Source of the DNA: Bacillus sp. ISL-45
Lineage (GTDB): Bacteria; Bacillota; Bacilli; Bacillales; Cytobacillaceae
DNA length: 64,000 nucleotides
Assembly: GCF_018613195.1 (NCBI RefSeq)
Contig: NZ_JAGGQQ010000006.1
Location: 117,100 to 181,099, forward strand
Reading direction: 5' to 3'
Below the pieces are notes generated by a model. It searched no databases, had not been told where the DNA came from, and saw only the letters and a list, made by a program, of their open reading frames with translations. Positions 10,317-63,406 of this stretch are shown here, in pieces. Position 1 is the stretch's first letter. Every line of letters starts with the position of its first letter. Position numbers and translations under genes: made by a program.

Positions 10317-10434
10317 TTTTCCATCTTCCTTCATTTAAAAATATTAACTGCCAGGAATAGCATTTTTCCTGTTACCAGCGTTTATACAATAGTATCAATT
10401 ATCTTTCGGCAATCAAAATAAAATGTTTTGAGAA

Positions 10435-10615
10435 GGCTCTTTTCTCAAACTTTGTTGCTTTGGACTACTAAATAGGATTGTTTGACCTATTTTTCTTCAC
10501 AAAATTGAATCTTTTGGGAGAAAAGAGCAGCAAACTTAATACTGACAGCAAAATAGCCTTATATTACGTTAAAATGGGTTTTAGGTTTTTAACAACAATC
10601 TTTACGAAAACAGCC
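10435..10615 (+). mobile_element. MITE-like element, copy 1 (181 bp)
   Basis: The ends are GGCTCTTTTCTCAAACTTTG on the left and CTTTACGAAAACAGCC on the right, imperfect inverted repeats of about 25 bp. It is flanked by an exact 8-bp direct repeat TTTGAGAA (10427-10434 and 10616-10623), the mark of a transposition event. An internal GGGAGAAAAGAGC mirrors the left end. It carries no transposase. It lies between the exonuclease and oxidoreductase genes. Confidence 0.85.
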
Positions 10616-10676
10616 TTTGAGAAAAAAGGAATACGGAAATTCTGGTGAGGGAATTGGGGAGGTAGGGGGAACAAGC

Positions 10677-13876: not shown

Positions 13877-13890
13877 TGATTTTTAGTAAA

Positions 13891-14073
13891 GGCTCTTTTC
13901 TCAAACTTTGTTGCTATTGACTACAAAATAGGATTGAATGACCTATTTTTCCTCACGAAGTAGAGTTTTTTGTGAGAAAAGAGCATCTCAACTTAATACC
14001 GACCTGCAAAGTGGCTTTATATTACGTTAAAATCGGCTTTAGGATTTTAACAACAATCTTTACGAAAACAGCC
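13891..14073 (+). mobile_element. MITE-like element, copy 2 (183 bp, tandem)
   Basis: It has the family ends and exact 8-bp flanks TTAGTAAA (13883-13890 and 14074-14081). The left-end sequence GCTCTTTTCTCA recurs inverted at 13973-13984, giving a 94-bp subunit that could fold as a hairpin. A 60-codon frame inside it is not supported by a ribosome site. Confidence 0.88.
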
Positions 14074-14081
14074 TTAGTAAA

Positions 14082-14264
14082 GGCTCTTTTCTCAAACTTT
14101 GTTACTATTGACTACAAAATAGGATTGAATGACCTATTTTTCCTCGTAAAGTAGACTTTTTTGTGAGAAAAGAGCATCTCAACTTAATACCGACACGCAA
14201 AATGGCTTTATATTACGTTAAAATCGGCTTTAGGATTTTAACAACAATCTTTACGAAAACAGCC
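14082..14264 (+). mobile_element. MITE-like element, copy 3 (183 bp, tandem)
   Basis: It differs from copy 2 at about eight positions, with the differences clustered near 14143-14155 and 14192-14200. It shares the central TTAGTAAA repeat with copy 2 and has another TTAGTAAA after it (14265-14272). Its right flank lies just downstream of tnrA. Confidence 0.88.
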
Positions 14265-14306
14265 TTAGTAAAAAAAGAAAACCTCCCGAATTGGAGGTTT
14301 TATAGT

Positions 14307-16107: not shown

Positions 16108-16291
16108 GGCTCTTTTCTCAAACTTTGTTGCTATTGACTACAAAATAGGATTGTATTACCTAAGTTTCTTTACAAAATTAAGGCTTATTATGAGAAAAGA
16201 GCTTGCAAACTTAGTACCGACATACAAAAAGACTTTACATCACGTTAAAATCGGCTTTAGGATTTTAACAACAGTCTTTACGAAAACAGCC
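16108..16291 (+). mobile_element. MITE-like element, copy 4 (184 bp)
   Basis: Family ends are present. The 8-bp flanks are TTTTATTT (16100-16107) and TTTCATTT (16292-16299), identical at 7 of 8 positions. The element inserted into or next to the T tract of the preceding terminator. The internal TGAGAAAAGAGC mirror of the left end is conserved. Confidence 0.85.
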
Positions 16292-24936: not shown

Positions 24937-25119
24937 GGCTGTTATCGTAAAGTTTGTTGTTAAAATCCTAAAGCCGATTTAAACGTAATATAAAGCTATT
25001 TAGCAGGTCAGCATTAAGTTTTCATCCTCATTTCTCCTTATTAAGTCAACTTTGCAAAGAAACATAGTTCATTCAATCCTATTTTGCGTTCAATAGCAAC
25101 AAAGTTTGAGAAAAGAGCC
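24937..25119 (-). mobile_element. MITE-like element, copy 5 (183 bp, inverted)
   Basis: It lies in reverse orientation: GGCTGTTATCG at the left and TTTGAGAAAAGAGCC at the right. Flanks are TTTAGGAA (24929-24936) and TTTCGGAA (25120-25127), 7 of 8 identical. The internal mirror of the end is eroded. It occupies the gap between the Mpo1-like and erythromycin esterase genes. Confidence 0.85.
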
Positions 25120-52763: not shown

Positions 52764-52932
52764 GGCTTTTTCGTATTGATAGTTGCTTTTCGTAGAAAAT
52801 GTCTATTCCAGCGCGTATTTTAGCTTCGAAACTGTATTCTTGGTTTCTAAAATGAAGAAAGACATTAGACTCATACAAACCCATAAACCCGTTTTCTTTA
52901 GCTTGTAAAACAACACGTTTACGAAAAGAGCC
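52764..52932. mobile_element. degenerate MITE-like element upstream of parE
   Basis: The left end GGCTTTTTCGTATTGATAGT and the right end CGTTTACGAAAAGAGCC match the family ends as inverted repeats, but the interior is unrelated and no 8-bp duplication remains. It lies in the parE leader region, 90 bases from the start codon. From 52933 to 53281 nothing further is recognised. Confidence 0.55.
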
Positions 52933-61692: not shown

Positions 61693-61813
61693 GGCTCTTT
61701 TCGTAAACTTTGTTGCTTTCTCTAATAAAAGTTAAAATCGGCTACGGATTTCTAATGATATGGAGCGGCAGGGAAGTTTTATACGAAAAGCTGCATTCAA
61801 TGCGAAAACAGCC
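61693..61813 (+). mobile_element. MITE-like element, copy 7 (121 bp, short form)
   Basis: The ends match (GGCTCTTTTCGTAAACTTTG left, GCGAAAACAGCC right), and part of the family core (GTTAAAATCGGCT) is present. Flanks are TTTTCTTA (61685-61692) and TTTTCTTG (61814-61821), 7 of 8 identical. Its right end is part of the coding sequence of the NCS2 permease. Confidence 0.8.
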
Positions 61814-63089
61814 TTTTCTTGTGAAGTGTGAATTGATCCACGGCAACAGCAATCAACGTGCCTAGGATTAAACCATTATTAAGAATTGAAACAAGGACAG
61901 GCGGAATATTGCGGAAAGCCTCGTCCGGAATGAACATTGCCCCTACTCCGGCCAGAAGGGAGGTTCCAATAACGACCCTTATCTTTTGTTTATCGTTCTC
62001 ACGATCAAATTCCGAGAATGCGATCCCGGTCATATTTACAAATATAACAAAAGTAACGGAGTAACCGACGGGAGCTGGAAGCGCCGCGAATAAATACATC
62101 ACATGAGGCAGCATACTGGCAAGGACGATCAACAATGAACTTATGATAAAAGGCAGGGTTCTTGTGATACCGGTAGCAGAAATAAATCCTGCTGCTCCAG
62201 AGATTGGAACAGACCCAATCGCCGAGAACACTCCTCCAAGCAGCTGATTGATTCCTGCTGTATAACCGCTGGCCCGGTACCGGAAATCCTTAATGTCTGA
62301 CCCCATATCTTTTAAAACTTGTCCGGTAACCCTTATGCTAGCTAACATATTGGTAATCAACAGGAACGTTATAAAAATAGAAGTCACAATTAAACCGGAA
62401 TCGAAAACAGGCTTCCCGAATGCGAAAACTTCCGGAAGTGCGATTGCTGCTCCATCGTATCGTTCGTTTGCTTTTCCCAGGTCAAAAATTTCAAAAAGCG
62501 CCCAGCCAGCGGCCAGGCTGATTAAAATGGCATACCGACTGACCCACTTCATATGATGCCTTGTCAGATAGAATGTAATCCCAAACAGAATTAAGCTGAA
62601 GAACGCAATCGGAAGGCTGACTTCAGTATTTCCGCCATCTAGTCCTGCCATTCCATTCAGGAAGGATCCGCTGAGCTGAATGACAAGCAATAGTAAGTAT
62701 ATCCCGCTGACTACAGGTGTGAATAACACTGCCAGTCTATCGATAAGTTTGAATAAACTTAATAGGAAGAATACAATACCGCTGATGATCATGGCTCCTT
62801 CTAAAGCCTGCAAGGTTTCAATTCTGGATGAAAAAAGTGTCGTACTCAATCCTGCATATATGGTAAAAACACCCCACCATAGTCCCGCAGGACCCTCATT
62901 AATTGGCATACGATGTCCGAACAAGGCCTGCAGCAGACTCGAAATGCCTAATACAAACATCGTCCTTTGAACCAGTCCGGTCGTCTCTAAATCATTCAAT
63001 TGGAATAAATCAGCGATCGCAATTGGTGCAACGATTGAACCAGCAATGATAAACGCCATCCACTGTATGGCTGATAATATTGTCTTCAT
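61797..63089 (-). CDS. NCS2-family purine/xanthine/uracil permease
   Basis: The 430-aa protein has about twelve hydrophobic helices of the nucleobase:cation symporter-2 family: SIVAPIAIADLFQLND near the start, GLWWGVFTIYAGLSTTLFSS near 70, the FSAIGSVPISGAAGFISATG block near residue 285 and NMTGIAFSEFDREND near 350. It imports a nucleobase, probably uracil or xanthine. Its last five residues (RLFSH) and TGA stop lie wholly or mostly within MITE copy 7, so the original C-terminus was replaced. No purine riboswitch core was seen upstream. ATG 63089 is preceded by GGAGATTTTAGG. Confidence 0.9.
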   Translation of the reverse strand: MKTILSAIQWMAFIIAGSIVAPIAIADLFQLNDLETTGLVQRTMFVLGISSLLQALFGHRMPINEGPAGLWWGVFTIYAGLSTTLFSSRIETLQALEGAMIISGIVFFLLSLFKLIDRLAVLFTPVVSGIYLLLLVIQLSGSFLNGMAGLDGGNTEVSLPIAFFSLILFGITFYLTRHHMKWVSRYAILISLAAGWALFEIFDLGKANERYDGAAIALPEVFAFGKPVFDSGLIVTSIFITFLLITNMLASIRVTGQVLKDMGSDIKDFRYRASGYTAGINQLLGGVFSAIGSVPISGAAGFISATGITRTLPFIISSLLIVLASMLPHVMYLFAALPAPVGYSVTFVIFVNMTGIAFSEFDRENDKQKIRVVIGTSLLAGVGAMFIPDEAFRNIPPVLVSILNNGLILGTLIAVAVDQFTLHKKRLFSH

Positions 63090-63250: not shown

Positions 63251-63406
63251 GGCTGTTTTCGTAAAGATTGCGTGATCAAAAGCCATTTTGTAGTACGAAT
63301 TAAGTGTGCAAGTTCTTTTCTCATCATTAGCTTTAATTTTTTGAAGAAACATAGGTCATTCAATCTTATTTTGTAGTCAATAGCAACAAAGTTTGAGAAA
63401 AGAGCC
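63251..63406 (-). mobile_element. MITE-like element, copy 6 (156 bp, inverted, internal deletion)
   Basis: It has GGCTGTTTTCGTAAAGATTG at the left and TTTGAGAAAAGAGCC at the right, with about 27 bases of the usual interior missing. It is preceded by TTAGTAAA, the same octamer as the tandem copies, but followed by AACATAAA, so the target duplication is not conserved. A 90-codon frame across it is not supported as a gene. Confidence 0.75.

Follow-up and report, generated by a model that had tools for sequence, protein, structure and literature searches.

The stretch analysed here (the window) comprises 64,000 nucleotides of the genome of Bacillus sp. ISL-45. At positions 10435..10615 of its forward strand lies a 181 bp element that is devoid of a transposase open reading frame (ORF) and is flanked on the left (10427..10434) and on the right (10616..10623) by exact 8 bp copies of the word TTTGAGAA. 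The left terminal inverted repeat (10435..10458, + strand) starts with GGCTCTTTTCTC and is kept in other genera and families. The right terminal inverted repeat (10591..10615, + strand) ends with CGAAAACAGCC, and its 25 bp are identical to the right end of L117, an IS1595-family element of Bacillus sp. OV166 (own flanks 5/8) that agrees with the consensus of the present family over 25/25 bp. Two further features lie within the element, both on the + strand: an internal inverted copy of the left end, GAGAAAAGAGC (10518..10528), and a dyad close to the right end (10568..10593; family consensus GTTAAAATC/GATTTTAAC), which shows compensatory changes among relatives and from which the reference copy deviates at the inner pairs. 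The inverted ends, the exact TTTGAGAA flanks and the absence of a transposase ORF from the 182 bp element agree with the first-pass annotation of this DNA, which had interpreted the element as a miniature inverted-repeat transposable element (MITE).

Eight related elements had been listed in the window. Six of them do form one family of about 183 bp, whereas those at 61693 and 52764 match it at the ends and not in the interior, and are therefore regarded as other elements with related ends. Besides the reference copy, the family comprises two tandem copies (13891..14073 and 14082..14264, both + strand), which are 96% identical and have TTAGTAAA on both sides, one TTAGTAAA being common to both; a copy at 16108..16291 (+ strand) that by eye lies in the T-tail of a terminator-like hairpin; a copy at 24937..25119 (− strand); and a 156 bp copy with an internal deletion and 4/8 matching flanks (63251..63406, − strand). 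The element at 61693..61813 (+ strand, 121 bp) contains a GTTAAAATCGG stretch despite its different interior, and that at 52764..52932 (+ strand, 169 bp), with IS1595-like ends, is an older insertion. Seven of the eight flanking bases match at 16108 and 24937 in the extracted copies and at 61693 in the sequence itself (TTTTCTTA / TTTTCTTG), as had been claimed. Two local arrangements were also observed. The tandem pair (13883-14272), with its one common 8 bp word, has a denser counterpart in an array on contig 22 (G000:C22:96659-97171), and a minus-strand ORF (61797-63089) takes its last codons and stop from the insertion at 61693-61813, so that it ends inside that element.

The genome (4.6 Mb in 27 contigs) carries more than 100 copies of the element. 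A BLAST search with the window copy gave at least 46 matches (40 of 172 candidates scored) and a model of the right half at least 124 (150 of 3184 candidates scored), while left-end 20-mers with up to three mismatches occur 151 times versus 0 for a reversed control. Sixty copies were extracted from the window and 72 loci, 51 of which are 180–187 bp long. The 8 bp duplications are exact in 39/60 copies and match in at least seven of eight positions in 49/60, versus 1.6% exact for re-paired flanks, a comparison with a small bias because ends could be moved by up to two bases toward a duplication and the shuffle did not include that choice. Chance matching of the flanking 8-mers, which would have spoken against transposition, is thus contradicted. 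The 39 exact duplications begin with T in 33 cases and end with A in 35.

Empty orthologous sites, the other expectation of a transposition reading, were found in related species of the genus. The comparison covered the sites at 10435, 13891/14082, 16108, 52764, 61693 and 63251. The 10435 site is empty in 10/10 genomes aligned across it, with a single target word (mostly TTTGAGAT or similar), and by coordinates in G002. The tandem pair 13891/14082 is absent from 19/20 relatives (19/19 of those aligned), the twentieth having no alignment there. Conservation of the flanks is poor at 16108; four relatives cover this site without the element and four are not aligned across it. In 6/6 related genomes the 61693 site is empty by alignment, and the 63251 site is likewise empty in 6/6 (two by alignment, four by coordinates). 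The 52764 element is present in 2/6 related genomes and absent from 4/6. The duplications and the empty sites together uphold transposition with an 8 bp duplication, and the short length, terminal inverted repeats, lack of a transposase and high copy number complete the characteristics of a MITE. Since the element has transposed in this manner and has no transposase of its own, mobilisation in trans, as already suggested, is the natural inference.

Insertion sites show a preference for the T-tails of terminator-like hairpins. Duplications matching at 7/8 or better mark 49 sites in the own genome, a set that includes tandem neighbours and is not fully independent, and 25 of these sites have a terminator-like hairpin with a T-run. 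The controls were drawn from the same loci as TT....AA sites in non-coding DNA, with coding judged by ORF length only. Sites within 0–10 nt of a hairpin number 18/49 in the own genome versus 23/314 controls (p 2e-7) and 8/37 versus 56/725 controls (p 0.009) for copies fetched from the wider family of hosts. For IS1595 elements the corresponding figures are 8/38 versus 33/411 (p 0.015); any nearby terminator-like hairpin is found in 9/38 versus 59/411, which is not significant (p 0.15). With controls of this kind, the terminator bias does not separate targeting from survival after selection. Orientation relative to terminators shows no clear bias (10 toward the left end, 15 toward the right end).

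The interior of the element is conserved in other genera and families, which is new relative to the first-pass annotation. In an alignment of 47 rows three regions are kept, namely the first 24 bp on the left, a block of about 20 bp in the interior that starts with GAGAAAAGAGC, and the last 49 bp, whereas the two spacers between them vary; the mean identity in ten-base windows is 0.82–0.98 in the kept blocks and 0.60–0.78 in the spacers. The last block contains the dyad GTTAAAATC(loop)GATTTTAAC with arms of 9 bp. Few own-genome copies enter the alignments (4 of the 60 in alignment A2 and 3 in A4). Alignment A4 takes in 15 rows of 170–190 bp from 30 fetched regions, short and unclear forms being left out, and two of its first 37 rows were dropped (one near-duplicate and one of 168 bp).

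Covariation was counted raw, not corrected for a tree. Among 41 sequences five pairs are changed on both sides, in 21 cells; among 53 sequences, four other families being added, there are six such pairs in 34 cells, and 0/500 shuffles reach the observed value in either set. Slid controls (53 sequences) reach no more than 5 pairs and 14 cells. Further pair types do not stand out in number, as 112/500 shuffles reach the observed count. In 16/53 sequences the left helix is broken at its innermost pair. In the right dyad, 98.5% of cells are paired, with 18 double changes; of its nine pairs, four have changed in both bases and a fifth by wobble, in several genera. The changes are G–C replacements and A–T flips, including U–A to A–U in eight sequences with no broken intermediate. 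Wobble counts are 8 G–T versus 9 A–C, without strand bias. Short forms of 139–145 bp exist, two of them with exact duplications (L283 and L285), and some short copies appear to have common flanks and so may be deletions after insertion. In L248 and L249 most of the left loop is missing and the left end is a near-perfect palindrome. The existence of such forms indicates that the left loop is dispensable, and they fit a folding of the left end on its inner copy. The same palindromic left end after loop loss is seen throughout the forms of ~110–115 bp (L248, L249, L278, L279, L282 and L286).

The symmetric changes need not reflect hairpins. Both covarying dyads might instead be binding sites of dimeric proteins, given that the internal block repeats a transposase end in inverted form, that symmetric changes could track an altered protein specificity and that the wobble counts are balanced. 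Base pairing is nevertheless the simpler fit to the right dyad, with its double-changed pairs and its wobble in several genera, and we regard the protein-site reading as doubtful, although it deserves consideration.

It is improbable that the core is cargo serving the host, either as a structured RNA or as a site bound by a regulator, with the MITE as its means of spread. The dyad does covary, and terminator tails harbour many of the insertions, which read-through from upstream genes could transcribe there. However, no aligned relative has the element at 10435, at the tandem pair, at 16108 or at 63251, the balanced wobble counts show no strand bias, and the fold z-score is −1.5 on the + strand and −3.4 on the − strand. 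Nor does any Rfam family correspond to it: 0 matches at the gathering score were obtained for the window and four relatives.

The element is widespread among related hosts. When 193 genomes of the GTDB family were compared with the window copy, 106 gave a match at E 1e-3 and 47, from seven genera, at E 1e-10 or better; the figure of 47/193 is used here because scores near E 1e-3 may rest on the ends alone, as within the genus in G010, G018 and G019. Forty regions were fetched from the family (35 from outside the genus). The ends are present in 38 of them, with duplications exact in 23 and 7/8 in nine more. The element is 179–185 bp long in 36 of these 38 copies, a length distribution biased by the choice of mostly full-length matches. 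Across the order, the right-half model matches at least 17/397 genomes, nine of them outside the family, in six other families; with ten candidates per genome and stricter filters, this is a lower bound. Twelve regions from outside the family have exact duplications in five cases (L295, L298, L299, L302 and L305), 7/8 in four, and flanks matching in 5 or 6 of 8 positions in the remaining three; the right dyad is absent from two of the twelve (L303 and L306). Short and unclear forms aside, the length is similar in these other families.

Copies group by genus. In the 53-row alignment, in which the host group is the genus or, for rows outside the GTDB family, the family, and no host tree is used, the nearest row belongs to the same host group for 45/50 rows, versus a mean of 9 and a maximum of 18 in 1000 label shuffles. 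Within genus g18 there are several subfamilies of the element, one of them close to g23. The grouping fits long residence in host lineages, and some transfer between hosts, including between families, may have occurred. A search of 50,697 phage records at E 1e-5 gave no match, and one exact 32 bp pattern was absent from viral contigs. Plasmids yielded a single record, Priestia filamentosa plasmid p5, on which a diverged copy (67%; L307, CP136440.1:57445-57609) lies between genes; such a plasmid is a possible carrier between genera.

A search for insertion sequences with matching ends, as the first-pass annotation had recommended, led to the IS1595 family. In the window genome itself no IS1595 transposase was found, whether by Pfam model PF12762 or by protein search, and the 182 bp element carries no transposase gene with a DDE domain, the mark of an autonomous IS1595 element. 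IS1595-family genes are found in 5/21 genomes of the genus. The broken genes of G003 and G013 have ends like those of the MITE within ~1 kb, with 2 and 6 mismatches in 24. Three open copies in G011 have other ends beyond GGCTCT (GGCTCTGTTAA...), and the broken copy of G012 has a right end of this same other type. Two open genes in G017, one of which is truncated at the end of its contig, have no MITE-like ends in the fetched stretch. No intact transposase with MITE ends was found among the 21 genus genomes.

More distant relatives were collected with a 120-aa piece of the G003 gene, which gave 240 relatives; the best 80 of these 240 loci were taken. By title they are mainly from Bacillales, the exceptions being one Lacticigenium, one Chryseobacterium and one Pseudomonas record. 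The Chryseobacterium title seems to be wrong: JAGGQZ010000013.1 (L098 / L087), titled Chryseobacterium sp. ISL-80, agrees in length with a contig of G013, a genome of the window's genus, overlaps it in position and thus belongs to G013 as well. At 38/80 loci both ends could be located together with a duplication of 7/8 or better (36 exact), with the same TT....AA bias as in the MITE. The right ends of these 38 elements differ from the MITE consensus at 1–4 of 23 positions, 14 of them at one. The transposases of three IS1595 loci score 211–215 bits against the IS1595 model (cut-off 75). IS1595 elements thus have the same ends, the same duplication length and the same target, so that the ends of the MITE are IS1595-family ends, with GG termini and 8 bp duplications. 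The inner blocks, in contrast, occur at none of the 80 loci by pattern search or by model search, and no partner carrying the core was therefore identified among them. Inside the IS1595 elements, end-like 10-mers are scattered and occur in 11/38.

Bacterial MITEs are usually viewed as debris of one insertion sequence, with the ends being what matters. Read in this way, the element would simply be what an internal deletion left of an IS1595 element, with functionless filler as its interior, spread by descent or transfer. Its ends are indeed equal to IS1595 ends, its spacers vary, its length is not strict (139–145 and ~110 bp forms) and an IS1595-type MITE is already known (PMC3852290). This origin is nonetheless quite improbable as a full account, because filler does not explain inner blocks that are missing from every IS1595 locus collected, blocks better kept than the spacers over 47 rows, compensatory changes in both helices or a length about equal in other families.

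The first-pass annotation had put forward mobilisation by an ISL3-family transposase as a reasonable hypothesis. ISL3 elements produce 8 bp duplications and start with a GGCTCTT-like sequence, features that fit the MITE, and the N-terminal half of the IS1595-locus transposase bears a weak similarity to ISL3 (20.7 bits, cut-off 180). No gene matching the ISL3 transposase model (PF01610) is present in the window genome, however, and in the genus PF01610 occurs at four places in 3/21 genomes, three without MITE-like ends and the fourth, which is truncated at the end of its contig, with one weak match (7/24 mismatches). An assignment as an ISL3-family derivative is not supported, as these four loci, the truncated one included, do not have the ends of the MITE apart from that weak match. 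With IS1595 elements matching over 23–25 bp, mobilisation by an ISL3 transposase is very improbable indeed.

We consider it highly probable that the element belongs to a family of ~182 bp non-autonomous transposons that is mobilised in trans by the IS1595 family and forms a long-lived lineage of its own with a conserved inner core. Its nature as a MITE with IS1595-family ends is well supported, and its breadth, its grouping by host and the covariation support the view that it is an independent lineage which has kept its core. DDE transposases of the IS1595 family would recognise the ~25 bp ends and move the element in trans, with insertion into AT-rich targets (TT....AA) through an 8 bp stagger. 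Present in several families of the order, the lineage would be one in its own right and not the recent internal-deletion product of one insertion sequence. Two parts would make up the core: the inverted left-end copy and the dyad that adjoins the right end, the latter probably folding as a hairpin. As the species do not have the compared insertion sites in common, a use by the host at fixed positions would hardly explain why the core is kept. Daughters arise only from mobile copies, and we infer from this that the core may act in cis in transposition, copies that lose it presumably leaving fewer daughters. The partner seems to be lost from the window genome at present or to lie in an assembly gap.

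Several known systems resemble this MITE in part. Members of the IS1595 family, relatives of IS1016/Merlin, share its ends, GG termini, 8 bp duplications and AT-rich target, and Bacillales members have these very ends; the MITE differs in having no gene and in its inner blocks. The IS1595 family is described as having 8 bp duplications, and its Merlin relatives as having terminal GG (PMC8101967). The ISHwa6-related MITE of Haloquadratum walsbyi is likewise of IS1595 type and of similar size (165 bp), with 25 bp inverted repeats and 8 bp repeats (PMC3852290); as far as it can be compared by its description, it is archaeal and has seven copies, unlike the Bacillus element with its more than 100 copies in one genome, several host families and kept core. 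Correia/NEMIS elements of Neisseria are described as having two size classes that differ by an inner segment, with an inner motif of possible function (PMC2229807); size classes and such a motif are the likeness, while the ends and 8 bp duplication of IS1595 type set the Bacillus MITE apart from that description. MITEAba12 of the Moraxellaceae is reported to be spread over many species of a family and to have the ends of a named insertion sequence, with a centre that is the most variable part and ends that are the least (PMC6382973), in contrast to the two covarying inner blocks kept here. The main text of a review of prokaryotic MITEs contains neither of the words IS1595 and Bacillus (PMC10969869). 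No published name for the family was known when the element was first annotated, and none was found among the matches listed in the open-access full-text literature.

A widespread repeat for which no name was found is now tied to IS1595. Several families have retained its covarying inner core while the compared insertion sites turn over, and this raises a defined and testable question, namely the role of the 26-nt dyad beside the end in transposition in trans. The terminator-tail bias may explain how so many copies are tolerated. By analogy with eukaryotic SINEs, we tentatively suggest that the element could be an ancient self-standing lineage that has outlived single IS1595 partners while the families of the order diverged; it might owe this to a structured core through which it outdoes the insertion sequence itself as a substrate, and to landing with little harm in terminator tails. 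The inverted end copy could fold against the terminus in such a substrate, with the covarying hairpin beside the right end. As a minor observation, a second gene that lies between transposase and right end in the IS1595 elements varies from element to element (L092, L132, L133 and others); by eye, those of L092, L132 and L133 look unrelated to one another, being acetyltransferase-like, SAP-like and lipoprotein-like.
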